Origin: a virus
Virus record (IMG/VR): IMGVR_UViG_3300025030_002857
Coordinates: 1-44,067 of that record
Length of the DNA stretch: 44,067 nt
Reading direction: 5' to 3' (one strand)
Under the pieces are notes generated by a model that had not been told where the DNA came from, did no database searches, and saw nothing but the letters and a program-made list of their open reading frames with translations. Within the stretch, counting starts at the first letter, position 1. The number at the start of each line of letters is the position of its first letter. The position numbers and the translations under genes are program-made. Shown piece after piece: positions 18,102-37,631 of this stretch.

Positions 18102-19337
18102 TTAAAAGTTATACCCAAAGGCGACGACCTTATCCACGGTAGTATCGAAAGGCGATTCGAAATCAACCCGAGTAGTTATGATTAACTCTTGCTGATCGGT
18201 GCGAGGATCTTCCCATATTTTTACCGTAACCTTGCGTAGATCTCCGATCATAAACGCATCCCGATTAACCAGGACTATGACCGATTTGCTCGTTGTTACC
18301 CCATCATATACTCCACTGGCATTAAGGTCATCTCGCACATACTCGGATAGAATGACTGGAATGTTATCGATCTTGGCAATTTCCCCGGTAAGGATAGAGG
18401 CCTTTGGACCATATTTATCGACAGTAAGCACTTCATCCAGATTCATCAGGTTGATCATGCCCTTAACTGAACAGATATAGGCCAACTTGATCGCATCTGC
18501 AGCATAGGTATTAGTTAGATTGGAACGGAGGGTCCGTAAATTAGCTATATTAAAGGTTGCTAAAGATACTTGGGCCGCCGCAAGGGTTGTCTTACGGTAT
18601 CCATTCCAGGCCTTTCGGGCATCCTTAGAATCGATTACATCACTATCCTGATGAGTTGCCGAGACATCCCCATCGATAATAGCCTTCTCTTCCCCCGCCC
18701 GAAGGGCTTTTACAATCTGGTCTTTCAGGTGAGGTAAAAGCGGAACAATGGAATCTTCAGTTAATTCTTCAGAAAATACGATCCGGACTGCCAATTTTTT
18801 CGCATCAAATTGGAAGTTCCGGGTTACATCTTGGGAGGTCTTAAATTTAGGGGCCTCATCGCTAGTCGATTCAGCGATTAGATAAGCGATAGGATCCGTT
18901 TTTAAGACCGGCACTTTAAAAGGATTGGTGGGCATATTGATGCGCCGATGTAAGGTAGCTACCTTCATCTCGATCCGTACCCGATCAATCAACTCTTTAG
19001 AGAATCCGGTCGGTATCCATTCGGCACCTCCACCAGTCTCGGCAGTATCCATCGCCTTTCTCAACTCGGTAATAGCGCTGGAATTCGCTTTCCATAACTG
19101 AAGTGATTGGGGCGATTGCTGGAGAAGGGTGGAAGTTAGATAAAGATCATCGGCAATGGCGAGAAGTTCAGGAGAAACGAGAGGATTCCTATCTGCTATA
19201 TAGGAAAATTCTCCTTTTCGGAGAGGTCTTTGATCTTCGAGGAGTCGTTGCTTAACAACATTGATAAGGGTTTCTTTTTTGCTGCCTACTTTCTCATGCA
19301 GTTGTTTTAAGACAGCCTGTATTTCAGCGTTATTCAT
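18102..19337 (-). CDS. Major capsid protein, HK97 fold
   Basis: Start is set at ATG 19337, which has AGGAGG at 19345-19350; the frame is open upstream to 19379 but without such a site. The 411-residue protein has a helical N-terminal delta-like domain (about 1-90), then HK97 E-loop/A-domain features: PTGFSKELIDRVR, MKVATLHRRINMP, FQFDAKKLAVRIVFSEELTEDSI (a typical capsid spine/P-domain segment) and a C-terminal VKIWEDPRTDQQELIITTRVDFESP. Upstream are protease and scaffold, downstream the connector. The N-terminal domain may be cleaved by the encoded protease; this is inferred. Confidence 0.9.
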   Translation of the reverse strand: MNNAEIQAVLKQLHEKVGSKKETLINVVKQRLLEDQRPLRKGEFSYIADRNPLVSPELLAIADDLYLTSTLLQQSPQSLQLWKANSSAITELRKAMDTAETGGGAEWIPTGFSKELIDRVRIEMKVATLHRRINMPTNPFKVPVLKTDPIAYLIAESTSDEAPKFKTSQDVTRNFQFDAKKLAVRIVFSEELTEDSIVPLLPHLKDQIVKALRAGEEKAIIDGDVSATHQDSDVIDSKDARKAWNGYRKTTLAAAQVSLATFNIANLRTLRSNLTNTYAADAIKLAYICSVKGMINLMNLDEVLTVDKYGPKASILTGEIAKIDNIPVILSEYVRDDLNASGVYDGVTTSKSVIVLVNRDAFMIGDLRKVTVKIWEDPRTDQQELIITTRVDFESPFDTTVDKVVAFGYNF

Positions 19338-19358
19338 TGATCTACCTCCTATTAAATA

Positions 19359-19394
19359 AGCGATTTTGAGTTTCGCCACTTTTTTTAAATCGCT
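19359..19394 (-). other. Inverted repeat in the capsid gene leader
   Basis: Eight-base arms AGCGATTT (19387-19394) and AAATCGCT (19359-19366) flank a 20-base A-rich loop, ending 8 bases before the capsid gene's Shine-Dalgarno sequence. It could form an RNA hairpin in the 5' leader. It does not have a U-run, so I do not call it a terminator; mRNA stabilisation is one possible role. Confidence 0.4.
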
Positions 19395-19967: not shown

Positions 19968-20873
19968 CTACTCTTCAATACCTAGAGCCCCTATAGAAAA
20001 GCCATTCAATTCACCATTTTTAATCTTCTCCCATGCCTCGGAATTATAAACTTTTACCCCGGCTATCCAGGTATCAGCAGGAAGCAATCGCCCACATATC
20101 ACTGTATCATGAGGCAAGACCAAAGAATCCACTACTTGTATATCTGAATAACCTTCGATAGTTTTTTCATCAAATAAATTGGGCATTTTTCCTCGTCTAT
20201 CCCGGTGCTCTACCAACATGACATTATAATCTGTCCAAAATTTCCGTGCACCTTCCCTGATGGCTTTGCCACTATAGCTATGATCATGCGCATCTGGCTC
20301 ATCAGGCTTTAGGACAATACCTAAAGCATATTGTTCTTCATCTTCCATTTTTAAAAGAGTTACAGGTTCTCCCTCTCCATCTTCTTCAAGATCACTAAAA
20401 ATAATCTCATCCTCATCCTCTTCAAAGTCATCTTCTTCCGCTAGCATCAATTCTTTTCCACCCGCTGGCCGTAAGACAAAAGCCCAGGACTTAGGCTTAA
20501 AAGCTATAACTTCTCCCTTCTCATTTTCTAAAACCTTTAATCTTGGTGAGATTCCCCATTTGGAATCATCATTCTGTATCATATAATCTAACTTGTCTGC
20601 TGCATCCCGATCCACAATCCATAAGTCTCCAATGATCTGTTTTTCTTTAGTATCATAACGAATTTTACGAACTTCACCTAGCCAATTAGCACAAGAATCA
20701 TCATGATCGTAAAAGAGAGAATCTCGGTTCTTAAATTCTAAATCATCCTCAGCTATCTCTTCTTTTAACCAGGCAACTCCATTCTCTAATGCCTTGCCGG
20801 GATAAAAGATACCATTTGCCTCTCCCTCTTTCATCAAAGTTCGATTCTTTACAACATATGGTATGGCTACCAT
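19968..20873 (-). CDS. Capsid maturation protease, XkdF-like, with extra N-terminal domain
   Basis: The C-terminal half of this 301-residue protein has the XkdF serine protease pattern: YALGIVLKPDEPDAHDHSYS, REGARKFWTDYNVMLVEH, LLPADTWIAGVKV and IKNGELNGFSIGALG. The N-terminal 150 residues (SLFYDHDDSCANWLGEVRKI, then DSKWGISPRLKV) resemble the DUF2213/S78-like prohead protease fold, so the protein looks like two protease-type domains joined by an acidic linker (EEDDFEEDEDE). It cleaves scaffold and capsid in the procapsid. The gene is first after a strong promoter and has AGGAG 10 bases before ATG. Confidence 0.85.
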   Translation of the reverse strand: MVAIPYVVKNRTLMKEGEANGIFYPGKALENGVAWLKEEIAEDDLEFKNRDSLFYDHDDSCANWLGEVRKIRYDTKEKQIIGDLWIVDRDAADKLDYMIQNDDSKWGISPRLKVLENEKGEVIAFKPKSWAFVLRPAGGKELMLAEEDDFEEDEDEIIFSDLEEDGEGEPVTLLKMEDEEQYALGIVLKPDEPDAHDHSYSGKAIREGARKFWTDYNVMLVEHRDRRGKMPNLFDEKTIEGYSDIQVVDSLVLPHDTVICGRLLPADTWIAGVKVYNSEAWEKIKNGELNGFSIGALGIEE

Positions 20874-20979: not shown

Positions 20980-23900
20980 TTAGCTTTTCTCAAATTGCCA
21001 GAAAACCCCAGTATCTTCTTGTTTTCCTAACCATTTTCCCTTCAATCTTTTGCCTTCAAAATTCAATTCTCTTTGATTATTTTCTTCTGCAATAACTACT
21101 TTACCAGCATCAGCCTGTTCAATAAAAGCAGGGATCGTTTTGTTGGGATTTCCGAATTTCCCTGCCGGTATCTTCCCTTCCCAGGTAAACCAGGCAACAA
21201 TATCTTTTTTATTAAAAGGCGGTTTCTGTAATTTATTTAAGCGCGCCGATAAAGGCCCATCAATCTCCAATGGATTAAACTCGAATTGATATTCCTCTAA
21301 ATATTTATTGCTATCTGATTCCATAATCAAATCCCAATGTTCAATCGGCAAATCCCGCACCACCGTATTATGCACTGGACCAAGAGCCGACAAGAAAGAT
21401 CGTGCCGAAGTCCACCGACTCTTAACTTCTAAAGATATGAAAGAACGAAACTCATGATGTATAGTAATTTTTTTTATAGGCGTATAAACAAAAAAGGTCT
21501 GCCCAATTTCTATAGCCGTCTTAATCAATTGCTGGCTATATTTTTCCTGCGTCATATCAGGGTTACAAGCTGATAAATGCTTATAAAGAATAAATGAAGG
21601 TGCTCGAAAACCACAATCTGAACAAATAAATACCGGAATCTTTAATTTATCACCTTGCTTCAAGGCATCAGCCCTAACCCATCCTTCATATAAATCATCT
21701 GCTGATCGAATCCATATCGGAGTATTCTCTGTTATCGCCTTAGTCCATTGTCCTGATTTCCAGTTTTCTTTCTGAGGATCATAGATCGTCAAGCCATAAA
21801 CGATCTTTAAATATCGAGGAAAGACTATGCGGTGTGCCTTAATAATCTCTAGAGGTTTGAGATCAGAAGCAAGAATAAAATTTCTATCCTTCAACTCACC
21901 GGCCTTAATCAGACCCATTGGTGCCGCAATCTCCAAGCTTGGATCCACACATTGCCCTTTGTAGTAATGCCTGTTCAAAACAAATCTTCTAGTCTTTCCA
22001 GCTCTTAAATCAATACTATCCGGTCTTAATAATGCCTTTCCAGTATCCTTTACCAATCCCGCTTCTTGAATCTCGGATTGAATAGTTCTGCTCAAGATAT
22101 CAGCATTATGCCGTAAATATTCTTGAAAGCTTGTGCTATCCAGGGTATTAATAGTGAATTGTAAAGAAACTTTTTGTTTCTTTGCTTTTGCTTTCTCCTT
22201 CAGATAGGCATAGGCATCATCCATATGGTTTAACATTTCAGCACGAGACAAATCCTTTCCCCACCAGCGCATCTCTTCTGGGACCTTCTCTTCCCACCAA
22301 GGTGGGAGTCCAGAAATGATCTCTTTTCCATCCGGTACCCAATCCCTTTTCTTTCTCCCCCGGGTGGTCAGGATATAAGGGGTATCAGTTTTTGCAATGA
22401 ATCCAGCCCAGAAGGTAGGAGTTTTTAATGGCGTCCTCATCTTCTTCGGCTCTTCTGGGGTGGCTATTTGTCTGAAGACCAATCGCTTCCGATAATAAAT
22501 CTCTTTTGGTCCTTTCATATCAAGAAAATACTCTTCGAAATATGGCCTTCGGATACCGGGATAAGCGAAGCCTACAGCCCGGGTAATAAAGACACCCTCT
22601 TCGAATCGTGTATTATGGGAGATACCCAGAGGCGTTAGATAATTCTCATGTTTTTTGATACTTAGATTATATGTTGTAGCTACTCCATCAAATTCTCTAA
22701 TCATAATAGGATGCAATAGCCAATACTTATTTCGTGATGATTTCCAGCCCCATTGTCGAAATTGTTTTATAATAGTCCTCTTTAATCCCTGTATCGGAAT
22801 AGTCATATAAATATAAGGATGTTCATACCAATCTCCATCCTTATCCTTCTTTTGGCCATCCTCTTTTAATGCCTCCAGAAAAATATCTTTTGTTAATTCC
22901 CATCCTATTTTTGCTATGTCACTGATCAGATCACTTTTATCAATATGGGCACAATACCATAGATGATCATAGGTAGCGCCTACATAGAATTCCCCAACCT
23001 TAATCTCATATTTCTGCTTGGGATCAGCCGGATTCTCAAAGACCTCCTGTACCCGATCCCATTGCATAATCATCAATCCATTCTCTGCTTTTGCCCGTAC
23101 CGAGACCTTATGACCCCGTGAGATGCCCCTGATATTCTGCCACCCCCGGGCCATTAAAACATCTACTTCAGTCAGGCAGGCTCCAGTAGAACCAGGCTCA
23201 ACAACATTCTCTCTGGCAACATTGATCCAGATTTGCGGTTGGGATGCCTTCCTCTCAACTAAAACCTTTTTATTAGGATCCATGTCAGGTCCGAATTTCC
23301 ATTCTGTTTGATCGGTTATCTTCCGACCCTGTTCAATGGTATTTATATCCTCTTTGATAATCCCAGCCGGTTGATCATCAATAGTCCATCCCCTCAAGTG
23401 GGAATTAAATTTTACACGAAAGTCGAGGTGAGCTGAGGCCCCACGAAAATGCTCTGACATGATAGCATAATGCTGCGGATATTTATTAGGAGCAACTTTC
23501 AGCTTCCAATTCAGCCATTTGTCAGGATTAACCTTTGCCAGTGCTGAAATATCTTCTTCAGCCTTTTTTATCTGCTGGGAAGAGGCCTTAATAATCCTTT
23601 CTGCATCGATATAGATATCGGGTTCTGTCCGTTCGGTATCAATTTCTTCTAAACGTGGGTTTTCCCAGGCGATCCCCTGGGTCCCATCTGGCCTCTTAAA
23701 GAAACGCATCGTGGTAGGCCTAATTGTAGCAATATCCCCAATCCTGGGGGCCGGATCCAGTTTCTTAGCATAGGTTTTACCATATGCTATTTCTGATTTC
23801 CCCCGATTTTTAAACCCAGCCCCCATCTGCCAGATATGCGGATCTTCGGTTCCTGACCAGACTTTGCGTTTAGCATCCCATCTCAATTCCAAATCGCCTT

Positions 23901-24633
23901 GCGATAATCGATGATCGCTTTCTATAGCTATCAGAGTCTTTCCATCTTTTCCTAAAATAGCCCCCCAAAGAATATAGGTCTCGGATTTCTTTTGCAGTTT
24001 TTTAAAGGCATCTAGAGCTTCCTGGCCAGTCAGATCCCCATCTGGTTTTTCAGGCCATGGATTAGGCTCAATTAGAATGCCTATAGTTTTTATTTTAAGC
24101 TCATAAGTTATCTTGACTTTAACCCACCCAGGTCCCCGACCAATTTCATAAAGACTTTCCAATTCTTTCCCCATAAAACCCTCGCTCGCCGGGAAAGCAA
24201 TCGCCTTCTTTACTGCCGCATCATATTCTTTCTTATTGGATACTTCCCAGGATGGCATACGCTTGATATATTTCAAGTCTTTAGGCAGGATCTTATCGAG
24301 GATTTTTAGACGTTCGGAAAGCGGCTTTTGAGATATATCCTCTTCATGATAAGGGATATCGAAGACATAATACCAGGTCTCTTCATCTCTAATAGGTTCT
24401 TTACCCACCCCTACTTTGGCCATCTCGGCCCGAGGAATAAGCTGCCCATCCTTGATCAGAATTAATTCTCCATCAAGGATAAAATTATCATGACGAAGCG
24501 ATTGAATTTCTCTCACCAAATCAGGCAGAATGGTACTACGTTCTTTGCCGCCATCAGTATAGACTTTTACTCCATCATTTTTATGAATTTGGATCCTAAA
24601 TCCATTTATTTTCGCAGAGATTTCAACAGCCAT
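20980..24633 (-). CDS. ATP-dependent DNA ligase with LigD 3'-phosphoesterase-like domains, carrying two inteins
   Basis: This is a 1217-residue precursor, about 833 residues after removal of the inteins at 486-674 and 895-1089. Residues 1-310 are a ligase core: motif I KINGFR (K8, with Asn in place of the usual Asp), ILDGELI, YYVFDIP, EGFMGKEL and GWVKVK, so the key residues are present although the usual N-terminal DNA-binding domain is missing. Residues 370-480 contain SEHFRGASAHLDFRV and GWTIDDQP, like LigD phosphoesterase domains. A second such domain is rebuilt by splicing, RFVLNRHYYKGQ joined to TVVRDLPIEHWDL. Residues 823-855 copy the tape-measure C-terminus. A TAA stop lies two codons upstream, so ATG 24633 is the first start. 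Probable role: end-healing and joining of DNA. Confidence 0.85.
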   Translation of the reverse strand: MAVEISAKINGFRIQIHKNDGVKVYTDGGKERSTILPDLVREIQSLRHDNFILDGELILIKDGQLIPRAEMAKVGVGKEPIRDEETWYYVFDIPYHEEDISQKPLSERLKILDKILPKDLKYIKRMPSWEVSNKKEYDAAVKKAIAFPASEGFMGKELESLYEIGRGPGWVKVKITYELKIKTIGILIEPNPWPEKPDGDLTGQEALDAFKKLQKKSETYILWGAILGKDGKTLIAIESDHRLSQGDLELRWDAKRKVWSGTEDPHIWQMGAGFKNRGKSEIAYGKTYAKKLDPAPRIGDIATIRPTTMRFFKRPDGTQGIAWENPRLEEIDTERTEPDIYIDAERIIKASSQQIKKAEEDISALAKVNPDKWLNWKLKVAPNKYPQHYAIMSEHFRGASAHLDFRVKFNSHLRGWTIDDQPAGIIKEDINTIEQGRKITDQTEWKFGPDMDPNKKVLVERKASQPQIWINVARENVVEPGSTGACLTEVDVLMARGWQNIRGISRGHKVSVRAKAENGLMIMQWDRVQEVFENPADPKQKYEIKVGEFYVGATYDHLWYCAHIDKSDLISDIAKIGWELTKDIFLEALKEDGQKKDKDGDWYEHPYIYMTIPIQGLKRTIIKQFRQWGWKSSRNKYWLLHPIMIREFDGVATTYNLSIKKHENYLTPLGISHNTRFEEGVFITRAVGFAYPGIRRPYFEEYFLDMKGPKEIYYRKRLVFRQIATPEEPKKMRTPLKTPTFWAGFIAKTDTPYILTTRGRKKRDWVPDGKEIISGLPPWWEEKVPEEMRWWGKDLSRAEMLNHMDDAYAYLKEKAKAKKQKVSLQFTINTLDSTSFQEYLRHNADILSRTIQSEIQEAGLVKDTGKALLRPDSIDLRAGKTRRFVLNRHYYKGQCVDPSLEIAAPMGLIKAGELKDRNFILASDLKPLEIIKAHRIVFPRYLKIVYGLTIYDPQKENWKSGQWTKAITENTPIWIRSADDLYEGWVRADALKQGDKLKIPVFICSDCGFRAPSFILYKHLSACNPDMTQEKYSQQLIKTAIEIGQTFFVYTPIKKITIHHEFRSFISLEVKSRWTSARSFLSALGPVHNTVVRDLPIEHWDLIMESDSNKYLEEYQFEFNPLEIDGPLSARLNKLQKPPFNKKDIVAWFTWEGKIPAGKFGNPNKTIPAFIEQADAGKVVIAEENNQRELNFEGKRLKGKWLGKQEDTGVFWQFEKS
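21367..21951 (-). other. Intein 2 of the ligase (residues 895-1089)
   Basis: Starts at Cys895 (CVDPSLEIAAPMGL) and ends GPVHN at 1089, followed by Thr1090 as +1 residue. Block B appears as TENTPIWI, in which the usual His is Thr. The 195-residue element contains a zinc-ribbon-like CSDC...H...C insert (residues 1004-1023) but no HNH or LAGLIDADG endonuclease. Its removal joins HYYKGQ to TVVRDLPIEHWDL and restores a phosphoesterase-type motif. Boundary residues and the restored extein support the call. Confidence 0.75.
22069..22167 (-). repeat. Copy of tape-measure C-terminal segment inside the ligase
   Basis: The 99 bases coding VSLQFTINTLDSTSFQEYL... differ from bases 7618-7716 at 22 positions (77/99 identical) and encode a closely similar peptide in the same frame (SLQFxINTLDxxxFxEYLRxNADILS). 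It is the only such similarity I noticed between distant genes of the window. Confidence 0.85.
22612..23178 (-). other. Intein 1 of the ligase (residues 486-674), mini-intein
   Basis: Begins at Cys486 (CLTEVDVLMARGWQNI), has a block B TYDH at 554-557, and ends with the typical YNLSIKKHENYLTPLGISHN before Thr675. At 189 residues and without an HNH or LAGLIDADG motif, it is a mini-intein. Splicing joins VVEPGSTGA to TRFEEGVFI, giving a continuous domain. Confidence 0.88.
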
Positions 24634-24637
24634 AATA

Positions 24638-24859
24638 TTAAACTATATCCATATTTGAATTTTCCCACTGCTTCTCCATACTACGAAGCGATGAATAAGG
24701 AATATTCAATTTTCTAATTCGAAATCCTGGAGGTAATTGAATCCAGTTTGCCTCAAACCAAGCATATTGATTAGGTGGAATAACTCCTTGATAATTTCCT
24801 AACCTACTAAAATAATAAAAAGCAATGCCAACAATTAATATTACAATCATATAGCCCAT
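24638..24859 (-). CDS. Small membrane protein, unknown function
   Basis: The ATG at 24859 overlaps the upstream stop as TAATG and follows AGGAG, so translation is coupled; a longer frame from 24901 lacks this. The 73-residue product has an N-terminal membrane helix (YMIVILIVGIAFYYF) followed by a short soluble part (VIPPNQYAWFEANWIQLPPG). No family is recognised. It sits between the nuclease-like and ligase genes. Confidence 0.65.
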   Translation of the reverse strand: MGYMIVILIVGIAFYYFSRLGNYQGVIPPNQYAWFEANWIQLPPGFRIRKLNIPYSSLRSMEKQWENSNMDIV

Positions 24860-26934
24860 TATTTTTCTCCTTCCATAAATATTTTTGCCCATTGCTCCCA
24901 TGCTTCAGAACTCGAAAAAAATTCTCCCCGGTGATATGCCGTCTTAGAAGTTTTCATTGGGGCGAAGAACTTTCCCAATTCTATCTTTTTATTGGTCATC
25001 CGGACGATCTTCCATTCCTCGGGAGGTTTAAACCTAACCTCCAGATCAGCCAATGGGATATAAGAAGTAATCGGGCCTCCATCAATACTAGACACCATAT
25101 GAATCCGATCCTTAAATTCCTCTGGTAATATGGATCTTAATCGGTATTCAATGAGATCAATCAATCGTTCCGCGGATTTATCCGTCCAGTTAATCCAGAT
25201 ATCCAGGTCAGTACCCCTGCCTGAAATAACCGTGCCCCCGATCATAGCAAGAAAGGGTTCTTTCACAATAATATCAGTAAAATTTCTCTGTAGGGCCTCT
25301 AATGGTATTTTATGTAAGACAGATAAGCTTTTATCAAGAGAATCCAATGCTCTATGTTCCAGCTTCCGTTTATGCATCTCATCTACGATTAATTGATGGG
25401 AATTGATAGTAAGTTCGTCACTTTGTCGATTCCCTCTCTGTGCAAAGATATCGTGGATTTTACCATGGAGAGTGATAAGCTGCATATCGCTTATCCTGCT
25501 TAATTTATCTGGATCCAGATTGAATATATCTAAACTATCTAATTGTTTCATCAATTGAACAAAAGTCTGAGTCCCTGCTTTTATCCGTACCCTCTTGGGC
25601 GTTAAAAGAGGAAAACGATCTTGTATAGGATAATAATAAAGTAATCCTTTTTTCGCCCACCAAGATTTTCGTTCTGAATCCGATATCCGATGCGATTCAA
25701 ATAATTTATTAAATTGATCAAGATTGATTTCTTTTGGTTCCTTGAATCTCGCATAACCATATAACTTATTATCACTTATGATTCCAAGAGGTTCCTGAAT
25801 AATATCAAATTTCTTGGATTTCACTAATGCTTTTTTAGAGCCATCAATAATCATCTTTCCATGAGGAGGAACAAGATATAAAGCCCGCTTTGCTATTTTG
25901 CCTATAATCTCAGGTAAAATTCTTTGTGTAATTGGCTTTTGTTTTTCTGGATGGAAAGTTGTTTTCCCACGATTAAATATTTCTCTAATTATTTTTTCTA
26001 AGAATTCTTTTGCCTCATCAATACTCGAGAATTCGCTTTTCCCTCCACGCCTCATAGTTGAGAGTTTGCCGAGAGTTAATCTTAAATCATCACTTAAAGC
26101 TATATCTGTTATCTTTGATGGATCATATCCCTCTAACCGGAAAAGCATAGCTTCTGTAGATAAAGATTTGCTGGTCTTATAATAATCAGGAAAATCCATC
26201 TTCATATTATCCCGAGCAACTTGAGTCTTGATCCCATATTTCCTTCCTATTTCAGCTACTGCTAGAGTAAGATCGTTATAAGCCAGGCCAATATGCCCTA
26301 CATGGGTTATGATAACATTTCTGATATTAAACTTATCTGCTGTTATCAAAGCAGATTCAATACTAGCATGACCTACATTTCCAGATCTTTTAATATCTCG
26401 CCGCAAAGACGAGCCATCAACAATTAATAATTTCACTCCACGCAGCTTTTCTGGCTCCAGAAAACGTAAATAATCAGGGGCATAGATAATCTGATTAAAT
26501 TTAATAGCAATAGCTGGACTCAATTTGCTATGATTGACTTTTATAGGCTCAAAAAGAAGACCGCCTATTTCCTGTGGCAGCTCCAGAAATTCTCCTGTGA
26601 GCTGAAACCGATTTTTAACATCATCTAGGGTAGGTTTATGGCTCCATACTGGAAAAGGAACTTCACCTCGAGCAAATTCCCGCAGAGCATATGAATGATC
26701 ATGATGACTATGAGATAAAATAAGTGCCTGATACTTGGCCATAGAAAGCTCTCCTATAGCCTCCCCTCCTGCGTCTATTCTAATTCTATGCTCATCAAAT
26801 TCTACTAATAAAGATGCCTGTTTATAATGATAAAAGCGATCCTTCATGCGCCTGGCCTCTGCATCTTGCGCGGTCTTCATATCCTTTCTTGGAAAGACTT
26901 TCTCTGAACGGGTACCTAAGAATGTTAGCTTCAT
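24859..26934 (-). CDS. Metallo-beta-lactamase fold / nucleotidyltransferase fusion
   Basis: This is a 691-residue protein. The first 230 residues are an MBL-fold hydrolase: LTFLGTR, a metal site HSHHDH at 75-80, a VNHSKLSPAIAIKF strand, IIYAPDYLRF, LLIVDGSS, GNVGHASIESAL and ITHVGH. This resembles a subgroup that I associate with bacterial DNA repair genes. The middle has unassigned helical parts, including LITLHGKIHDIFAQ and NSHQLIVDEMHKR. Near residues 560-600, MIGGTVISGRGTDLDIWI is a polymerase-beta type nucleotidyltransferase motif (GG...S...DxD). It overlaps the upstream gene by ATGA and is followed by the ligase. Probable role is DNA end processing; substrate untested. Confidence 0.75.
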   Translation of the reverse strand: MKLTFLGTRSEKVFPRKDMKTAQDAEARRMKDRFYHYKQASLLVEFDEHRIRIDAGGEAIGELSMAKYQALILSHSHHDHSYALREFARGEVPFPVWSHKPTLDDVKNRFQLTGEFLELPQEIGGLLFEPIKVNHSKLSPAIAIKFNQIIYAPDYLRFLEPEKLRGVKLLIVDGSSLRRDIKRSGNVGHASIESALITADKFNIRNVIITHVGHIGLAYNDLTLAVAEIGRKYGIKTQVARDNMKMDFPDYYKTSKSLSTEAMLFRLEGYDPSKITDIALSDDLRLTLGKLSTMRRGGKSEFSSIDEAKEFLEKIIREIFNRGKTTFHPEKQKPITQRILPEIIGKIAKRALYLVPPHGKMIIDGSKKALVKSKKFDIIQEPLGIISDNKLYGYARFKEPKEINLDQFNKLFESHRISDSERKSWWAKKGLLYYYPIQDRFPLLTPKRVRIKAGTQTFVQLMKQLDSLDIFNLDPDKLSRISDMQLITLHGKIHDIFAQRGNRQSDELTINSHQLIVDEMHKRKLEHRALDSLDKSLSVLHKIPLEALQRNFTDIIVKEPFLAMIGGTVISGRGTDLDIWINWTDKSAERLIDLIEYRLRSILPEEFKDRIHMVSSIDGGPITSYIPLADLEVRFKPPEEWKIVRMTNKKIELGKFFAPMKTSKTAYHRGEFFSSSEAWEQWAKIFMEGEK

Positions 26935-27524: not shown

Positions 27525-28244
27525 TTACGCAATTCTCAAAGAATATTTCTCTTTTAACTCTTTTCTGATTTGCTTCCAAAGTTCTTGTTTGTCGGGTCGA
27601 AAAGTTAATTGACAGTGGTGTTGCCGATAATAATGAAGAGATTCAGCTAAAACCGGAATCCCTCCTTTAAATGCCAATGCACGGGCACAGCGCAACATCA
27701 AGTCCCAATCCTGATAGCCCATCAGATCGATTTGTAGGCCCCCTACCTCGTCGAAGAAGTCTCTTGCTATTAAGATTTCGCCATAGTCGACATAATTATC
27801 CGTTTGCAATAATCCAAAAGTAATCATAGATGGCTTCGGCGTCCGGCATATAACCCCTGGCTCTTCAATCCCATCCTCAGTAACAACCCGGGAATTGCAT
27901 ACCACTATAGGGCTGTTAATTTGTAAACTAAAATTAAGCATCTTTTCAATAAAATATTCATGCTTCCAATTATCATCATCCAGAAAAGTTAAATAATCTC
28001 CATCTGAGTGTTCTACACCATATTGAGCAGCAGAAGCAGGGGTCTCTAATTCCCCATAAAATATCTTGACTCTAGCTCCATGCTGACTCAATAAAGGTAC
28101 TAGGCAGGAGCTTATTTCCTTCTGATCTACCAAGATCAATTGCCATTCAGGATAAGTTTGAGCAAAAACCGATTCAATAGCCTTTGTTAAAAAATCGATT
28201 CTCTGCCAGCCTAAAAGAATTATAGAAATAAGAGGTAAGGACAT
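27525..28244 (-). CDS. Glycosyltransferase family 2
   Basis: This 239-residue protein has the GT-A fold: ISIILLGWQRIDFL at the start, WQLILVDQKE, the metal-binding FLDDDNW (D89-D91) and MGYQDWDLMLRCA near residue 180. It transfers a sugar from a nucleotide donor, acceptor unknown. ATG follows the TAA of the HAD gene directly, so it is coupled to the sugar-synthesis genes (HAD, kinase, isomerase). Length is usual for a soluble single-domain enzyme. Confidence 0.85.
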   Translation of the reverse strand: MSLPLISIILLGWQRIDFLTKAIESVFAQTYPEWQLILVDQKEISSCLVPLLSQHGARVKIFYGELETPASAAQYGVEHSDGDYLTFLDDDNWKHEYFIEKMLNFSLQINSPIVVCNSRVVTEDGIEEPGVICRTPKPSMITFGLLQTDNYVDYGEILIARDFFDEVGGLQIDLMGYQDWDLMLRCARALAFKGGIPVLAESLHYYRQHHCQLTFRPDKQELWKQIRKELKEKYSLRIA

Positions 28245-28931
28245 TTAGTTAAATAAATCTTCGACATTAACATCATCCCAACAAGAATATACTTTAAATG
28301 CTCCGGCTTTTAGCATTTGAGCCATAAATGAATTATTATTTAACGTTGGTATACCAATAGGAATACTATTAGCTCTACGTGCTGCTATAATACCATTTAT
28401 AGAATCCTCAAAAACCAATTGCTGTTCAGGTAAGATATTCATTCTCCTTGCTGTTTTTAGATAGATTTCTGGATCTGGCTTAACTTTCTTTACATCTTCT
28501 CTTAATAAAATACATTCTGGAAAGAAATATTGATCTAAACTGCTTTTTTTTAATAATATTTCTGCAATAGAACGGGTAGTAAGAGAGCCAATAGTCATTG
28601 GCAAACAACGATCTTTAAATGAACAATATATTCTTAAAAAGCTTTTCCTTATTTCAATCTTATCTATATCTTCTAAAGATTTAATAAAATAATATCGTGT
28701 TCGATTTAAAATAAAATCAGATTGATCCTTATTACTTTTATTTAATAAAGCAGCAATTTCCTCCGCTATTGCCTCATCGGGACCCCCCACAAAATGTGGG
28801 ATATATTTAATAGCTTCCTCTAATTCCATATGAATACCAAATTCCCGGGCAGCGGCTAAATGCCCTTGCCAATGCAAATACTCTAAATCAATTATTGTCC
28901 CTTCAAGATCAAAAGCGATTCCTTGTATCAT
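28245..28931 (-). CDS. HAD-family phosphatase (sugar phosphate, phosphoglucomutase-like)
   Basis: Start set at ATG 28931, preceded by GGAGG; a longer frame reaches 29012 but would overlap the kinase. The 228-residue protein has motif I FDLEGTIID (D8 nucleophile; second acidic residue Glu rather than Asp), a Thr/Ser region MTIGSLTTRS, KPDPEIYLKTA and FEDSINGIIAARRA. This is the beta-phosphoglucomutase/phosphatase HAD type I subfamily. In context with a GmhA-like isomerase and HddA-like kinase it may play the phosphatase step of a heptose pathway; it is not canonical GmhB. Confidence 0.75.
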   Translation of the reverse strand: MIQGIAFDLEGTIIDLEYLHWQGHLAAAREFGIHMELEEAIKYIPHFVGGPDEAIAEEIAALLNKSNKDQSDFILNRTRYYFIKSLEDIDKIEIRKSFLRIYCSFKDRCLPMTIGSLTTRSIAEILLKKSSLDQYFFPECILLREDVKKVKPDPEIYLKTARRMNILPEQQLVFEDSINGIIAARRANSIPIGIPTLNNNSFMAQMLKAGAFKVYSCWDDVNVEDLFN

Positions 28932-28962
28932 AAGGAAAACCCCTCCTTTAGCTGGCAGTGGT

Positions 28963-29934
28963 TTACGGATTACTAAAATCCAAACAGACTCCATCTGATT
29001 CAACAGCGACATCTAAAGCAGGAAAAAGAGTAAACCGTTCTTTAAATTCTGCCTTATTACGCACGCATACTAAATAAAAACCCTGTGCCCCAGCTCCGCA
29101 GCTTTGATAGGCATCAACCCCTGCATAAATTATAGACTCTATTATTTTTTCACTTTCTTGAGGTCTATGTATAGGACTCATCAATCTTAAAGTATGACTT
29201 TTTTGTATCAATTGAAAAAGATCTTCATAGGAAATATGAGGTATTGTTTTTGCAAAGTCCTCAGCTAATCTTGTGCTCTCCTCTATTGCCTCCAGATTAA
29301 ATGCCTCTTCTCGATTAAGGTCTAAATAACGGGTGCGTTCCTTTGAATTTGGAATTAACAATAGATGCTCCTTAACTAATCTATTAAAAGCAATGATTTC
29401 TTTTTCAGGATATCTATAATGTTTAACGAGACTGGAATTTTTAATACCGATCATATTTACTCCTCCAGAAACCGCTGCAATATGATCTTGTATTCCAATA
29501 GCAGCACCAACTCTATTTATCTCGATCTCTATAGCATCTTGAAAAATAGCCATTGGAGTTATTTTTTCTTTCTTCCTGGCACGAAGTGCTAAAGAAAGGG
29601 CACATATAAGAGCTGATGATCCTCCTAAACCAGTCCCTTTTGCTGATAAATCACTGGTTATATGAATCTCTAAGGGTTGGTTTGATAAATCATAAAATTT
29701 TAGTGCCTCACGAATCAAATTATGCTTAATATCTTCTATCGAATCTACTCTTTCAATCTCAGAATATTGGATGACCCATGATTTTAAAAACCGATCATGG
29801 ATGGCGCAATAAACACGATAAGGGATGCTAAAGGATATAATGGAACCGGATAAGCCTGATCTCTGATATATAGGCAAATCGGAAGAACCGCCAGTTAAAC
29901 TAATCCTCATAGGGGCTGAAGCCAATAAAAACAT
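28963..29934 (-). CDS. hddA: HddA-like heptose-7-phosphate kinase (GHMP family)
   Basis: ATG 29934 has GGGGAG 8 bases upstream and follows the TGA of the isomerase gene. The 323-residue product carries PMRISLTGGSSDLP at the start and the ATP-binding GTGLGGSSAL at about residues 100-109, as in D-glycero-D-manno-heptose 7-phosphate kinases. The end has CGAGAQGFYLVCV, the third GHMP motif. It phosphorylates the sugar at C1 on the way to a nucleotide-activated heptose. The preceding GmhA-like gene supports the pathway; the exact substrate is inferred. Confidence 0.8.
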   Translation of the reverse strand: MFLLASAPMRISLTGGSSDLPIYQRSGLSGSIISFSIPYRVYCAIHDRFLKSWVIQYSEIERVDSIEDIKHNLIREALKFYDLSNQPLEIHITSDLSAKGTGLGGSSALICALSLALRARKKEKITPMAIFQDAIEIEINRVGAAIGIQDHIAAVSGGVNMIGIKNSSLVKHYRYPEKEIIAFNRLVKEHLLLIPNSKERTRYLDLNREEAFNLEAIEESTRLAEDFAKTIPHISYEDLFQLIQKSHTLRLMSPIHRPQESEKIIESIIYAGVDAYQSCGAGAQGFYLVCVRNKAEFKERFTLFPALDVAVESDGVCLDFSNP

Positions 29935-29938
29935 CAAT

Positions 29939-30469
29939 TCAACTCCCCAATAACCATCGGTTAAAGGCTGCTTTTATACAATGGCCAATAATTAAATGCA
30001 TATCCTCATTAATTCCATCATTATCCGATTGTATAGGAATAATAAGCTGATATTGAGATTGAGGTGGAGGATTAATTCCTGTTAGCAATATAGCTCTGGG
30101 ATAATCAGCAGCAATAGCTAGAATAGTTGGCGAACGGCCTGAAGAGCTAAATGCAATAAGCAATTCTTTTCCTATTCGTCGTTTTCGCTTGAAAGCACTG
30201 GAATAGCCATAATCATTTGCTCGTGCTGTTAAAAATGCAGGACTGAATATTTTTGTTTGAAATCCTAGAGATTCTAAATCAATAGCCCAATGCTCTGCAG
30301 TACAATATGAGCCACCATTGCCACAAAAAGTTATAGGCCATTTGTGTACATAAGCTTCCTGGAGATCAGAAATAAGCTCTGTAAATAGATATTCAGCATT
30401 GTGGGGCAAATAATCTATTAATTGATTTAAATAGCTTGATATTTCCAATCCTGGTAAATCAATTAACAT
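29939..30469 (-). CDS. gmhA: GmhA-like sedoheptulose-7-phosphate isomerase (SIS domain)
   Basis: ATG 30469 is preceded by AAAGG; a TTG at 30478 would add three residues. The 176-residue product has the SIS signature FCGNGGSYCTAEHWAIDL (compare GmhA's GNGGSA-x-x-A-Q-H) and IAFSSSGRSP near residue 112. It would make D-glycero-D-manno-heptose 7-phosphate from sedoheptulose 7-phosphate. It overlaps the radical SAM stop by 11 bases and is followed by the HddA-like kinase. It lacks the usual Zn-binding details I could verify, so the substrate is a family-based inference. Confidence 0.75.
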   Translation of the reverse strand: MLIDLPGLEISSYLNQLIDYLPHNAEYLFTELISDLQEAYVHKWPITFCGNGGSYCTAEHWAIDLESLGFQTKIFSPAFLTARANDYGYSSAFKRKRRIGKELLIAFSSSGRSPTILAIAADYPRAILLTGINPPPQSQYQLIIPIQSDNDGINEDMHLIIGHCIKAAFNRWLLGS

Positions 30470-32420
30470 TGGCTGCAATCCTTTGCTGGATCTTTTTCAA
30501 GAACTCATAATCAATATTCTTAATTTTTTGGCAACAGGGTGAATAGGCACTCCAATTTTCATTCAGGATTAAGCCATTCTCTTTACAATAATCATAAAGC
30601 TTAGAGCCAGGGAAAAGAGTATAGATAGATGGGGATAGTCGCTCGGGTTTAATCTCTTCGATAAACTGCGCGGTTTCTAATGCCTCGGCATGAGTCTCAG
30701 TAGGCAGCCCGAGAATGAAATTGCAAAAAATCTTTACTTTATTTTCTCGTAATATGGCAACGGCTTCTCGGGTTATTTCTTTTGTAGTCTCTTTCTTAAT
30801 AAATTCTAATACCCTATTGCTTCCTGATTCCACGCCAAGCGAGACCCAGATCAATCCGATCTTTGCCAGACCAGCTATTAACTCTTTTCGTTCAACAATT
30901 ATTCTGGGATGGATCTGCATAAAAAAAGGAGCCGAGCCGAAAACAGCGCCAAACTGCTCGATAAACTCTTCTATCCAGGAGGGCTTGGCAACTAAATCAT
31001 CATGGAACATAATCGAATTAAAAGAAGATTGATCTCGTAATTGTTTTAATTCTGCCATAACATTTTCTACAGAGCGCATACGTGGAGGTCCATTTATTCG
31101 CCTTCGATCTGAGCAGAATTTGCAGTTATGCACTAAGACATCATTGGCATAAAACCAATCAAATTCAGGTACTTCAAGACAATAAACATCTTCTTTCTTA
31201 GATAATTTTATTACTTCACTCACTTTGTGATTTATTCCTTCGGAATAAAATGTTGATACTCGTGATTTTTCTCCTATATATTTTCCATCTTTATAATTTG
31301 GATTTTTTTCTCCTTGTTTTGACAAAGAATATCGGATACGTTGTTCAAAGGTTCTTTTTTTCCCAGTTATTGCCTGACGTATTTTTTCACGTGATTCTGA
31401 AGTGCAATATTTTGAAGGATTATTTGTTCTCATCCGTTCCTTAATTTCTGGATGAAAAATAAAATGATCCTTTTGATTTCTTACATATATCAAATTTTTG
31501 ATTGAATTATCTTTTTTACATCTATTATCATGATGAACCAGTTCACTTCGTTTTAAAGGCCGTCCTAATTCATATTCTATTTTTAACCTCGATAGTCTTT
31601 TTTTTAATTTTCGCCTCCAGGTAATAATAGGATAACCATATGCATCTATATATTCATGAATTGCCCGCACGCGCATTCCTGGTTTCAAATGGTCTGCCCG
31701 AATTTCTTCTTCTCTTTCTCCGATAAATTGATTACCCCATTTAAATATTTTGAAGAGATGGTCCGATGTACAATCAATGAATGATCCATTATCAAACTTT
31801 ACTCGTATCAATTCTGCATTTGTTCGTGTCTTTGCTACCATCCTCGGTTTAACAAATAATATTCGATCATTCTGTGAATCAAGCGTCATAACAGGATAAG
31901 GATCAGTCATTTTAGCTAGGTCCTTAATGGGAATTTTGCCATTTATAGTATTAACTGCTGTATCACCTGCCAAACAATGAAAAGAGCATCCCCTTCCCAA
32001 GATCATAGTCAAAACCGGCGATTTTAATTCTGGAAATAAAGGAAAATTCATTTCTTCTATCCCAAAAATATTCCGGTCAATAAAAGGCAACCTATCTAAC
32101 CCTACTAGACGACAATTTGCACCAGAATCAGGACCTATACCATCCGGGCCATATTCTATGAAGGTTGGTAATAGATATTCCCCTTCACCTCGAATGACCA
32201 TATCTGCCCCAGTCTCTTCTTCTATCATCTCACTTAAAGAGGCATGGGCACCTCCCACGATAATCTTCGCATTCGGTTTATTTTTTCTCAAAATCTCTAT
32301 GGCCCTCTGCCCATGCAGATAATCTGTAGATAAATACGAGAAACACCAAAAATCTGCATCAACGGATTGGCAGATCTGATCCCATGTATGCCAAGAAGCC
32401 AGTTTTCTGAAATCAAACAA
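30459..32420 (-). CDS. B12-binding radical SAM enzyme interrupted by an intein; N-terminus frameshifted
   Basis: The open frame begins at TTG 32420 because the first part of the B12-binding domain lies in another frame upstream. Residues 20-90 are the remaining Rossmann half (AKIIVGGAHAS, MVIRGEGEYLLP). The radical SAM core starts at GRGCSFHC (C145, C149), where an intein (residues 149-432) sits; after splicing, C-x3-C-x2-C (CSFHCKFC) is rebuilt. SLGVESGSNRVLEFIKKET and FCNFILGLPTET are typical later segments. Such enzymes do methylations or rearrangements on lipids, sugars or antibiotics; the substrate here is unknown, but the neighbouring genes suggest a glycan or its precursor. Confidence 0.85.
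   Translation of the reverse strand: MFDFRKLASWHTWDQICQSVDADFWCFSYLSTDYLHGQRAIEILRKNKPNAKIIVGGAHASLSEMIEEETGADMVIRGEGEYLLPTFIEYGPDGIGPDSGANCRLVGLDRLPFIDRNIFGIEEMNFPLFPELKSPVLTMILGRGCSFHCLAGDTAVNTINGKIPIKDLAKMTDPYPVMTLDSQNDRILFVKPRMVAKTRTNAELIRVKFDNGSFIDCTSDHLFKIFKWGNQFIGEREEEIRADHLKPGMRVRAIHEYIDAYGYPIITWRRKLKKRLSRLKIEYELGRPLKRSELVHHDNRCKKDNSIKNLIYVRNQKDHFIFHPEIKERMRTNNPSKYCTSESREKIRQAITGKKRTFEQRIRYSLSKQGEKNPNYKDGKYIGEKSRVSTFYSEGINHKVSEVIKLSKKEDVYCLEVPEFDWFYANDVLVHNCKFCSDRRRINGPPRMRSVENVMAELKQLRDQSSFNSIMFHDDLVAKPSWIEEFIEQFGAVFGSAPFFMQIHPRIIVERKELIAGLAKIGLIWVSLGVESGSNRVLEFIKKETTKEITREAVAILRENKVKIFCNFILGLPTETHAEALETAQFIEEIKPERLSPSIYTLFPGSKLYDYCKENGLILNENWSAYSPCCQKIKNIDYEFLKKIQQRIAANVN
31125..31976 (-). 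other. Intein with HNH homing endonuclease in the radical SAM gene
   Basis: The 284-residue element starts Cys149 (CLAGDTAVNTINGKIPIKD), has a block B SDHLFK near residue 217-222, and ends NDVLVHN before Cys. Between them lie an HNH motif (LVHHDNRCKKDNSIKNLIYV) and NUMOD3-like repeats (KIRQAITGKK; KQGEKNPNYKDGKY), so it is a full homing intein. The DNA is A+T rich. It is placed between the first and second Cys of the Fe-S motif. Confidence 0.93.
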
Positions 32421-32560
32421 CTGACCTGATGGCCATCCTCTTTAAGTATGGTAATCAGCATAGCTACTCCATGGCTGATCAAGGTCCCTTCAAAGCCCCG
32501 ATTGAAGCTATTGAATCCCGGGACTTGAATATTCACATAGGCAAAAATTATCCTGGCCAT
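32421..32560 (-). pseudogene. Frame-displaced N-terminus of the radical SAM B12-binding domain
   Basis: ATG 32560 codes for MARIIFAYVNIQVPGFNSF..., then LKEDGHQV, a classic start of a cobalamin-binding domain (hydrophobic strand, then L-x-x-x-GH-x-V). At about 32421 the reading frame has to shift by one base to continue as LFDFRKLASW in the gene at 30459-32420. Without the shift, the frame runs on to 32297 into unrelated sequence. No slippery heptamer is seen. A one-base deletion, or a sequencing error, best explains this. Confidence 0.7.
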
Positions 32561-32761
32561 TTAGATATAATTCCTAATTTTCATGATTATCCCCACCGGA
32601 CATCGGCAATGTTTCTCGCATTTTTGACAGAACCAGCAACCCGAAAAGATTCTACAGGCGCATAAATATTCTGTTAAACACCCCCGGTCCTGTATCGGCG
32701 CATTACAGCAAGGACAAACAGAATTATAAACAATCTGAACTATGGGGCTAATTGGCTGCAT
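32561..32761 (-). CDS. Small cysteine-rich (zinc-binding) protein
   Basis: From ATG 32761 (M4 of a longer frame) this about 66-residue protein contains CPCC, then GCLTEYLCACRIF and CWFCQKCEKHCRCP, 13 or so cysteines in all. It resembles a pair of fused zinc ribbons. It overlaps the end of the methyltransferase gene and precedes the B12-binding radical SAM gene with no gap. Role unknown; metal-binding accessory is possible. Confidence 0.5.
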   Translation of the reverse strand: MQPISPIVQIVYNSVCPCCNAPIQDRGCLTEYLCACRIFSGCWFCQKCEKHCRCPVGIIMKIRNYI

Positions 32762-33425
32762 GATATTCAAATATCCTTAGTCCCAGATGCCAACCTTTTT
32801 CTTTCGGTTGTCCATAATATCCTATCTCTCTTATGCCTTTATCAGAATATGAGGCCAATATCTGTTCCGTTGCCTCCCATACCTCCCCGACCCATTCCGG
32901 CAAATCTTTCTGAAACCTGGCGGCATCATCAAAAATTAGTAAAGCATCCCTGGATAAATAGGGATAGATCAATTCAAAATATCGTAATACGGCATCCTTG
33001 GTATGAAGCGCATCAAAAAAACACACGCCAATATTATTGATAGGATCAGAAGCAAAAGCCGTTTCAATAGATTGCGCTTTAAACTTAAAATGTGCAGGGA
33101 GGCCATCAGGAAATATCATACTCAAATTGGTAAATAGATGCCCTGTGTTCCCACCGTATTGACTAAAATCATCGATGGCAATAAAATTTTTATCTTCATT
33201 ATGGAGCATAGCTCCACAAAGGGTTAGTCCCCGATGGGTCCCTAATTCCACAAAAGTTTCATCATTCTCCATAGCCTTTACTGCTATATTCAAGACCATT
33301 AAGATATTAGCCGAGGTCATCCCCCCAAACTCGGGTGTTCCGATCTTCTCAATAACTTTTGATAAATAATCATTCGGTATTCGATTCACTGTCTTTAATT
33401 GCTCTAGAAAATATTTCAGCCTCAT
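32748..33425 (-). CDS. SAM-dependent methyltransferase (Methyltransf_24-like)
   Basis: This 225-residue protein has the class I motif I TFVELGTHRGLTL, motif II-like NFIAIDDFSQY and a CFFDALHTKDAVLRYFELIYPYLS segment followed by LIFDDA, the arrangement of cephalosporin-hydroxylase/Methyltransf_24 enzymes, which act on sugars or small metabolites. Its ATG overlaps the glycosyltransferase TGA as ATGA. It probably methylates a sugar unit. Confidence 0.75.
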   Translation of the reverse strand: MRLKYFLEQLKTVNRIPNDYLSKVIEKIGTPEFGGMTSANILMVLNIAVKAMENDETFVELGTHRGLTLCGAMLHNEDKNFIAIDDFSQYGGNTGHLFTNLSMIFPDGLPAHFKFKAQSIETAFASDPINNIGVCFFDALHTKDAVLRYFELIYPYLSRDALLIFDDAARFQKDLPEWVGEVWEATEQILASYSDKGIREIGYYGQPKEKGWHLGLRIFEYHAAN

Positions 33426-34303
33426 GAGATCATCTCTTCTACATCTGGAATGCCAGATCCCCAGCCAGACCAGGCTTTTGCCTGTTCAAACCATCTCCAT
33501 TGCTCAACATAAGAGCGATTATAGATTACTGGAGCCTGTTGACACTTATCTCTCCATGCCTTTTCTGCATGGCCTAGATGCCACCAGGGTCCCACTGCAT
33601 GATACAGCCGGTATCCCCATATGATACCCAGGGCACATCCTTGCGCTCTTACATAATCTCCCCATTCACCATTCATATCCGACATTATTCCCGCATGGCT
33701 TTTCCATGAATATCCTCGCAGCAGATCGGTCTTCCAAATAGCACAAGAGCCTGAGAATGTATGGGGAGGTGAAAGCAGAATTGCCTGATTGCCACATCTA
33801 ATCCAGGAGCTATCTAGCCCTTGAGGGTCAATTACAGGGATATTTTCTTCAACTATATTTTCATATTGAAATCGTGGCTCGGAAAAACTATTATAATCAA
33901 CTCCTCCCCAAGAAACCCCCATCTGATTTCTCTCATCCCTGGGGCCACCGAGATTTAAACCAGCCAGAGTAGGGTAATTTTCAAAGCATTCTATCATGGC
34001 TGGCAACCAGCCTTTGGTTACTAGCCATATATCATCATCGATACTCATCACATAAGGGGTAGTCACAATTTTTAATAATTTATTCCTGGCTTCGGTCCCA
34101 ATATTAATCTTCGAGTGCATAGGAATGAAATAAGGCCATTTTTTTAAAGTAGCCAGATAATCTGCCGTATCATCCTCTGAGGCATTATCCCAGATATAAA
34201 TCATAACCTGCTCTCTTTCTGTGGTCGCATAGAGACTATAGATGCAGCGTTCCACAAATTCCCGCCGATTTCTGGTAACAAGTAATACGCTTAATTGGCT
34301 CAT
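33422..34303 (-). CDS. Glycosyltransferase family 2
   Basis: This 293-residue GT-A enzyme has LSVLLVTRNRREFVE, IYIWDNASEDDTADYL and SIDDDIW (D89-D91). The later part (GSCAIWKTDLLRGYSW) is a usual acceptor-side segment. A reasonable AAGGATTTGGG site precedes ATG 34303. It is followed by the overlapping methyltransferase gene, so sugar transfer and methylation may be coupled. Confidence 0.85.
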   Translation of the reverse strand: MSQLSVLLVTRNRREFVERCIYSLYATTEREQVMIYIWDNASEDDTADYLATLKKWPYFIPMHSKINIGTEARNKLLKIVTTPYVMSIDDDIWLVTKGWLPAMIECFENYPTLAGLNLGGPRDERNQMGVSWGGVDYNSFSEPRFQYENIVEENIPVIDPQGLDSSWIRCGNQAILLSPPHTFSGSCAIWKTDLLRGYSWKSHAGIMSDMNGEWGDYVRAQGCALGIIWGYRLYHAVGPWWHLGHAEKAWRDKCQQAPVIYNRSYVEQWRWFEQAKAWSGWGSGIPDVEEMIS

Positions 34304-34365
34304 ATCCCAAATCCTTCCCCCCTTTAAATATGTGCTAAGCCATTAAACCGATCTGTTGCATTTTT

Positions 34366-34947
34366 TTAACCTTTTATGGTCCTCACCCAAATATGAACCC
34401 CTTGATCCCATGAATCTAATGATTCCACTGGGACAATGGTTCCATCGGTATGATGATAACCAGGAAAGATGTCTTTCTTCTGTAATTTAGATTGATATTT
34501 TTCCAGAAAATCATGAATCATTTCCGCTGTCCATCCACTCTGATGGGTATCAAGATCAAACTTTTGCCATCCCCAAAGTAATCCTCGCAAAAATATCCAA
34601 TTTACCTTTCCCTGATTGTAGAGTTTTATCGCATGGTCTACTGGCGGAAAATTGAATTCAATAATACCTTCTGGTATTAATATGCGTAACCATTCTTCAA
34701 ATGCGAGAGTACATTGGCGATAATTCATGTGCTCCCACATTCCACGGCCATAAATATGGCCTATTGAGGCATCTTCAAAGGGCAATTCCCAAGCAAAACA
34801 TTCGATCTCGATATGATGCTCTCCTTCAGGGACATGAGGATCAGTATGTATCCATTCATCCCATTTTTCTCTTCCAAAACCACCAGAGCCTACCTCAACT
34901 TTAAAAGGCTTAGGAAACCCCTTCAGATCTTTTAATATCCTGGGCAT
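34366..34947 (-). CDS. SAM-dependent methyltransferase (type 11-like)
   Basis: The 193-residue protein has a class I core: KVEVGSGGFGREKWD (motif I, VGSGG), then DPHVPEGEHHIEIECFAWELPFEDASI and MWEHMNYRQCTLAFEEWLRIL, which carries the D/E-H-(M/I/V)-x-x-x-E segment common in type 11 enzymes. It is likely an O- or C-methyltransferase for the glycan of the island. A 62-base gap separates it from the downstream glycosyltransferase. Confidence 0.75.
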   Translation of the reverse strand: MPRILKDLKGFPKPFKVEVGSGGFGREKWDEWIHTDPHVPEGEHHIEIECFAWELPFEDASIGHIYGRGMWEHMNYRQCTLAFEEWLRILIPEGIIEFNFPPVDHAIKLYNQGKVNWIFLRGLLWGWQKFDLDTHQSGWTAEMIHDFLEKYQSKLQKKDIFPGYHHTDGTIVPVESLDSWDQGVHIWVRTIKG

Positions 34948-34954
34948 GTTTTAT

Positions 34955-35683: not shown

Positions 35684-35693
35684 CCCTACCTCC

Positions 35694-36521: not shown

Positions 36522-36529
36522 AATCTCTC

Positions 36530-37399: not shown

Positions 37400-37414
37400 T
37401 AAATTCTTTTACTT

Positions 37415-37609
37415 CTATGTTTCTTTAAGCCTACTTTTTTTATTTTCTAAGGATTGAAGTTCACGCCTGGCATCTTCTATAGCCTCGATTTCAGTAAGTC
37501 CAACACCCGTTACTTTCAAATCAATGCGACGATCTATGGTTGTCAATTCTGCAAGCCATAAATTATTATCGAAATGCAAAACATACTTAAGCGATTCATT
37601 TTGCCACAT
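37415..37609 (-). CDS. Small protein of unknown function, HicB-like pattern
   Basis: A 64-residue protein with a GGAGG site 7 bases before ATG. The sequence (YVLHFDNNLWLAELTT, then GVGLTEIEAIEDARREL) recalls the alpha-beta fold of HicB-type antitoxins (strand, strand, helix with T-x-x-E-A-x-x-x-A). No HicA partner is seen beside it, so I do not call a toxin-antitoxin system. Confidence 0.45.
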   Translation of the reverse strand: MWQNESLKYVLHFDNNLWLAELTTIDRRIDLKVTGVGLTEIEAIEDARRELQSLENKKSRLKET

Positions 37610-37631
37610 TGGCTTCCTCCATCAGATACGA

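Follow-up and report, generated by a model that had tools for sequence, protein, structure and literature searches.

We analyzed a stretch of 44,067 nucleotides of DNA from an uncultured tailed virus (IMG/VR record IMGVR_UViG_3300025030_002857, positions 1 to 44,067; hereafter the window), in which a pair of open reading frames (ORFs) spanning positions 20980-26934 carries a set of predicted DNA end-repair domains beside the head genes. The upstream ORF (24859-26934, 691 amino acids (aa)) combines metallo-beta-lactamase (MBL), ASCH and nucleotidyltransferase (NTase) domains, and the downstream ORF (20980-24633, 1217 aa) an ATP-dependent DNA ligase, an OB fold and two 3'-phosphoesterase (PE) domains resembling that of LigD; these and all other window features given below lie on the minus strand. 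A previous sequence-only reading of this DNA had the gene coordinates right, and the HSHHDH and GG..S..DxD motifs that it described were located in the upstream ORF, at aa 75-80 and 566-578.

The ligase domain (aa 1-180 of the downstream ORF; 24094..24633) matches PF01068 (DNA_ligase_A_M) with E=5e-23 and 82 bits against a cut-off of 26. Its motifs (I KING, III DGEL, IIIa VFDIPY, IV SEGFMGK, V WVKVK) are conserved from I to V in an alignment of 45 sequences, and its PDB matches are archaeal and LIG1 DNA ligases, so that the predicted identity as an ATP-dependent DNA ligase is firm. Alignment of 40+ relatives indicates an OB-fold domain at 23554..23871, with a degenerate motif VI (DTER..PD); the RxDK form of this motif was found in many relatives, while it is also degenerate in L005, the nearest of the related loci (designated here by L numbers).

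Both PE domains that had been claimed for the ligase protein were recovered. PE1 consists of an N-terminal part with H395, H402, D404 and R406 (23179..23496) and a C-terminal part containing GIRRPYFEEYF (22234..22611), and PE2 of a short N-terminal part (21952..21993, RRFVLNRHYYKGQ) and a C-terminal part (20983..21366), which together retain H700, H715 and D717 in the numbering of the spliced protein. By hhalign PE1 aligned to CkoPE with E=4e-9, and PE2 matched 3p43 through its profile A4 (E=2e-8) and by hhalign (E=2e-11). The fold search was done with a model of PE1-PE2 from L005, which is free of inteins; it returned seven PDB matches at E<=0.001, all of them LigD PEs, with target-normalised TM scores (TMt) of up to 0.81, and a single significant viral structural match in BFVD. 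Profile and modelled fold thus place PE1 and PE2 firmly in the LigD-PE superfamily. In PE1 the Mn-site counterparts of His42, His48 and Asp50, together with that of Arg52, are present in 44-45 of 45 sequences, the window included.

Each PE is interrupted by a mini-intein, and both inteins had been taken for ordinary sequence in the previous reading. Intein 1 (189 aa, aa 486-674; 22612..23178) lies in PE1 at GSTGA^TRFEEG and has Cys1, block B TYDH and an HN|T junction; intein 2 (195 aa, aa 895-1089; 21367..21951) lies in PE2 at YYKGQ^TVVRD and has Cys1, block B TENT, in which the His is replaced, and likewise HN|T. Excision of both in silico restored GSTGA-TRFEEG and YYKGQ-TVVRD, giving a spliced product of 833 aa, and L003 and L004 are among the relatives with exact empty sites for both, L011 having one for intein 2. 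Since Pfam and PDB sequence searches gave no match for either one, the calls rest on junction motifs and empty sites; on this evidence both inteins would have to splice out before either PE can fold. In relatives, further active-site positions of the module hold inteins (ligase motifs I and V, PE1 and MBL), some with LAGLIDADG domains, and in L037, L039, L041, L049, L050 and L051 several distinct insertion sites were found, nearly all within catalytic motifs. So many active-site inteins make the module suited to the study of intein invasion.

The upstream ORF begins with the MBL domain (aa 1-255; 26170..26934), which a Pfam scan identified as Lactamase_B_2 (PF12706, E=6e-11). Its HxHxDH motif (HSHHDH, 75-80), H135, D154 and H211 were located, and the ligands are kept in 11-12 of 12 relatives. 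The best PDB matches of its AlphaFold2 (AF2) model were 6b9v, of the PhnP family (E=1e-13), and 3g1p (TMt 0.73), with further resemblance to YhfI, RNase Z and Apyc1 in the structure search, and on the model the domain is firmly of the PhnP/YhfI/RNase Z type. An identity as an Artemis/SNM1 beta-CASP nuclease was rejected, Artemis scoring E~0.3 against E~1e-13 for the PhnP/RNase Z family. A helical region and an ASCH (PUA-like) domain follow (aa ~256-475; 25510..26169); the profile of this region (A6) matched the ASCH structures 1wk2/2dp9 in the PDB (E=3e-7) and four of 12 members matched Pfam ASCH (best E=5.5e-4), which makes a good case for a predicted ASCH identity. The NTase domain (aa ~500-640; 25015..25437) shows GG(x)9DxD, within the general family pattern G[GS]..DxD, and its D576 and D578 are invariant in 39 of 39 aligned relatives. 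The PDB matches of its profile (A7) were all Pol beta/lambda/TdT yet marginal (best E=0.029) and, because the AF2 model of the NTase is poor, its family rests on the motif and these matches; the domain is accordingly called Pol-beta-type at motif level.

The ligase fold itself is divided between the two ORFs. Its first ~38 residues (GKFFAPMK...EFFSSSEAWEQWAKIFMEGEK; 24862..24975) close the upstream ORF, and motif I stands only seven residues into the downstream one, whereas in many relatives a comparable segment, KPxxGFxKxEFFDxxExWxKWA..IDxGI, precedes motif I within one polypeptide. Between the halves lies a small ORF of 73 aa with one predicted transmembrane segment (24638..24859), joined to the upstream ORF by a stop-start overlap, TAATG. 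The sequence-only reading had correctly put MBL and NTase in one ORF, but the ASCH domain between them and this split across a membrane-protein ORF had gone unnoticed. We considered whether the 216-bp gap between the ORFs is an intron, of group I/II or another type, and rejected this, an inserted small gene being the better explanation; the gap had no Rfam match at gathering score, chance-level matches alone at a loose E-value, and a fold z of 0.89. L005 is interrupted at the same break point by different small ORFs, and at L005:9900-10020 it shows an apparent frameshift, from assembly or real, exactly at motif I (KFDG). In six more loci (L008-L010, L022, L025 and L034) the ligase is divided into two ORFs at a common site between motifs IIIa and IV. 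As the first strand and helix of the ligase would be supplied by the upstream protein, the two window products probably act as one complex.

The seed for collecting relatives was a profile of two sequences, the window extein and ANMV-1, with a PE1 peptide included in the search pattern. A profile scan of IMG/VR yielded 50 related loci, 51 with the archaeal virus ANMV-1, a figure that is not the number of independent lineages because some loci are near-duplicates (e.g. L017/L020/L021). The check proposed earlier, to look for the gene set in other phages, thus gave a clear result, the domain set recurring in ~50 virus contigs at the corresponding head-gene position; recurrence of both set and place at this level is far above chance. 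IMG/VR searches with single window or ANMV-1 proteins gave no match, nor did tblastn of the window ORFs against phage records at 1e-5, and among 50,697 public phage records the family, although kept across so many virus contigs, was found in ANMV-1 only, labelled just 'ligase'. A prophage origin was rejected, ~85,000 species genomes giving one pattern match; in the phylum of that lone genome about 7 of 295 genomes had matches beyond host ligases, mostly on small contigs, and the rest were host replicative ligases. Text searches of an open-access library found no description of the module.

With profiles built here, both PEs were counted in all 51 loci (for PE1 partly by design, because its peptide belonged to the search pattern), NTase and OB in 46 each and the ligase in 45. 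Most absences of core domains fall at contig ends, and elsewhere the ligase is missing from L027 and L044 alone; NTase, ligase, OB, PE1 and PE2 are thus the invariant core. Their arrangement varies, from MBL-ASCH-NTase-ligase-OB followed by PE1-PE2, protease and capsid protein as separate units, to NTase-PE1-PE2-ligase-OB-XkdF and NTase-ligase-OB-PE1-PE2-XkdF. In close relative pairs dN/dS was mostly 0.02-0.1 across all enzymatic domains, indicating strong purifying selection. Ku (PF02735), which the sequence-only reading had also failed to see, was found in 0 of 38 records, with B. subtilis as a positive control.

Directly downstream of the block lie a prohead protease (19968..20873; XkdF domain aa 173-297, PF14550 E=6e-17) and an HK97-type major capsid protein (18102..19379; PF05065 E=6e-14), so that the earlier claim of a position beside capsid genes holds, and in relatives this place is conserved to the point of protease fusion. 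A prohead protease was found in 43 of the 51 loci, mostly 0-80 bp downstream of the module, 14 of the 51 carry protease and PE domains in one polypeptide, and the association holds across at least three domain orders. The portal gene is immediately upstream in the loci tested (L005, L017, L011, L004 and ANMV-1); in ANMV-1 (L002) it is the gene at 1913-3193, annotated as 'MutT-like phage hydrolase', which Pfam calls a portal (PF06381 E=3e-22). The conserved place of the module is therefore between portal and prohead protease. Known phages with XkdF (PF14550) proteases have portal-XkdF-capsid protein without a ligase module, and in HSTV-1 and Rhizobium phage RHph_TM16 a portal-position gene, protease and capsid protein stand in like order, also without it.

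Taken together, we read the block with moderate confidence as a Ku-less, LigD-like machine for end healing and end sealing, placed within the head-building gene set and acting on virus DNA. It could instead be an ordinary cytoplasmic ligase of replication, recombination or packaging, expressed from the late operon by chance and never packaged. In most records the module ligase is indeed the sole recognised ATP ligase, and the ANMV-1 copy has no adjacent recognised protease, but we find such a role unlikely given the repeated protease fusion, the constant portal-protease position and the fact that the NTase/PE/PE set is missing from ordinary phage ligases. Two larger viruses, moreover, encode a second, ordinary ligase, which suggests that the module ligase is specialised and not simply replicative.

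In the end-repair machine that we favour, the complex would enter the procapsid together with the prohead protease, its fusion partner in other lineages, be freed by that protease at maturation, and work on the virus genome during packaging or just after ejection; entry and release are suggested by the position of the module between portal and protease, or fused to the latter. PE1 and PE2 would clean up 3' ends that are blocked or bear ribonucleotides, nucleotides would be added by the Pol-beta-type NTase, and nick sealing or end joining, e.g. in genome circularisation, would be the task of the ligase, with the accessory MBL and ASCH possibly handling cyclic-phosphate or RNA-containing ends. 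In LigD, according to PMC8656161, 3'-ribonucleotides or 3'-phosphates are taken off by the PE, while nucleotide addition falls to the polymerase domain and sealing to the ligase, a division of labour that would fit the module with a Pol-beta-type NTase replacing the AEP polymerase. From the sequences we infer the enzyme activities, a substrate that is DNA and not RNA, the formation of a complex, packaging and ejection. Searches of each domain, suggested in the sequence-only reading as a check, led from PE1 and PE2 to LigD PEs, from the ligase to DNA ligases and from the MBL to the PhnP/RNase Z family; profiles and folds therefore support the domain assignments made there and the logic of trimming, extending, healing and sealing, except for the MBL nuclease, to which PhnP, YhfI, RNase Z and Apyc1 are closer.

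The accessory domains bring RNA into consideration. Besides MBL (11 of the 51 loci) and the ASCH-type region (25 of the 51), a 1635-aa protein at L023:8258-13162 joins a PNKP-type 3' phosphatase and a 2H phosphoesterase to the NTase-ligase-PE-PE core. The module might be a 'polyvalent' protein, ejected for RNA repair or counter-defence, that mends cleaved tRNA or other host RNA, or destroys cyclic-nucleotide signals, early in infection. Such a function would suit an ASCH domain, PUA-like and of the RNA-binding type, an MBL resembling RNase Z, PhnP and the anti-Pycsar enzyme Apyc1, and the phosphatase and 2H domains of L023, and big multidomain head-linked proteins have been reported as packaged effectors (PMC5512222). 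We consider it doubtful all the same: the invariant core is of DNA-ligase type by PF01068 and by its archaeal and LIG1 matches, OB motif VI is present in many members, the PEs are of a DNA-repair family, and MBL and ASCH are accessory. A further fusion was seen at L028:6863-12778, where a 1972-aa protein has a D12 adenine methyltransferase fused to NTase-PE1-PE2-ligase-XkdF.

Several observations weigh against a virion-associated DNA end-repair machine. Motif I of the window reads KxNG in place of KxDG, its motif VI is DTER and a conserved HEYF has become EEYF; with some ligase motifs altered, catalysis by this copy is not assured. In one large group of relatives Arg takes the place of the third NTase carboxylate. 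His84 and Tyr88 of P. aeruginosa LigD, a second pair that is essential to its PE (PMC8656161), correspond by hhalign to Gln/Trp in window PE1 and Asp/Trp in window PE2. PE2 is degenerate in many lineages: the window and some dozen relatives retain its Mn triad, which most others have lost; the degenerate copies are still under purifying selection and may be binding domains. ASCH and the 2H and PNKP-type domains of L023 are equally compatible with RNA, no protease was recognised in the available sequence of ANMV-1, L003, L004, L023, L038 and L050, and a late-operon location points to packaging only indirectly.

The altered motif I (KING), motif VI (DTER) and EEYF, along with the split ligase and the inteins, the second of which has no block-B His, could mean that in the window lineage the enzyme has partly decayed into a structural or nucleic-acid-binding head protein. 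This seems quite improbable, as both window ORFs are long and open and window PE2 retains H, H and D although these are lost elsewhere. KxNG, besides, is common to nine other loci (layout A), and close pairs among these are under strong purifying selection.

Among known systems, LigD of bacterial non-homologous end joining (NHEJ) likewise combines a ligase, a 3'-phosphoesterase and a nucleotide-adding domain, and the module PEs align and fold like its PE. The module differs in having a Pol-beta-type NTase and no AEP polymerase, two PEs with His84/Tyr88 replaced, no Ku, a place in virus head clusters, and extra MBL/ASCH domains and inteins. In ANMV-1, a methane-seep archaeal virus (PMC4372165), the 'ATP-dependent DNA ligase' (KP703175, AJP62006) similarly has NTase-ligase-OB-PE1-PE2 in one protein adjoining the portal; unlike the window it has no inteins, MBL/ASCH or adjacent recognised protease, and the words ligase and intein are absent from the main text of its paper (PMC4372165).

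The closest concept in the literature is that of the polyvalent proteins of phages and conjugative elements (PMC5512222), which are also large, head-linked and multidomain, with NTase, 2H and peptidase domains, and are thought to be packaged, whereas the core of the module is DNA-ligase/PE; the main text of that paper contains neither 'DNA ligase' nor LigD and reports its 2H domains as never associated with RNA ligases (PMC5512222). The closest biological precedent is offered by mycobacteriophages Omega and Corndog, which, in the account of Pitcher 2006 cited in PMC7719229, encode Ku and use host LigD. According to that citation NHEJ-type chemistry is there too used by a phage on its genome ends, with an own Ku and a borrowed host LigD as against a LigD-like enzyme without Ku here.

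More broadly, and only tentatively, a protease-fused or protease-adjacent machine of this type may be packaged by many uncultured tailed viruses that infect archaea or bacteria, freed at maturation and ejected for genome repair and circularisation; it would then be the first DNA ligase/end-healing system of tailed viruses to travel in the virion. If true, this would explain how viruses without Ku could repair or close their DNA as soon as it has entered the cell, in archaeal and bacterial hosts alike, and would provide a new kind of prohead-protease cargo as well as new ligase and phosphoesterase enzymes for biotechnology.

As for hosts, L053 sits in an Archaeoglobales metagenome-assembled genome, and L033 probably represents the same contig. 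A search for TBP, as a sign of an archaeal host, found none in five records, the archaeal metagenome-assembled genome among them being negative too. The window encodes an N-acetylmuramoyl-L-alanine amidase (39365-39928), which none of 37 other records tested does; this gene suggests a bacterial host for the window virus, although several relatives are archaeal.

Elsewhere in the window, the CxxxCxxC cluster of a radical SAM/B12 protein (30459-32420) is interrupted by a large intein of HNH type (PF14890 E=7e-12). An RRXRR protein (39956-40972; PF14239 E=2e-35) looks like an IsrB, a relative of IscB, carried by a virus: it has a PLMP-like start and RuvC-like motifs, and an HNH is not evident. 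Directly upstream of the head genes, a large sugar/glycosylation cassette (27525-44034) includes several glycosyltransferases, GHMP kinases, a SIS isomerase, a HAD-like protein, methyltransferases and radical SAM/SPASM.

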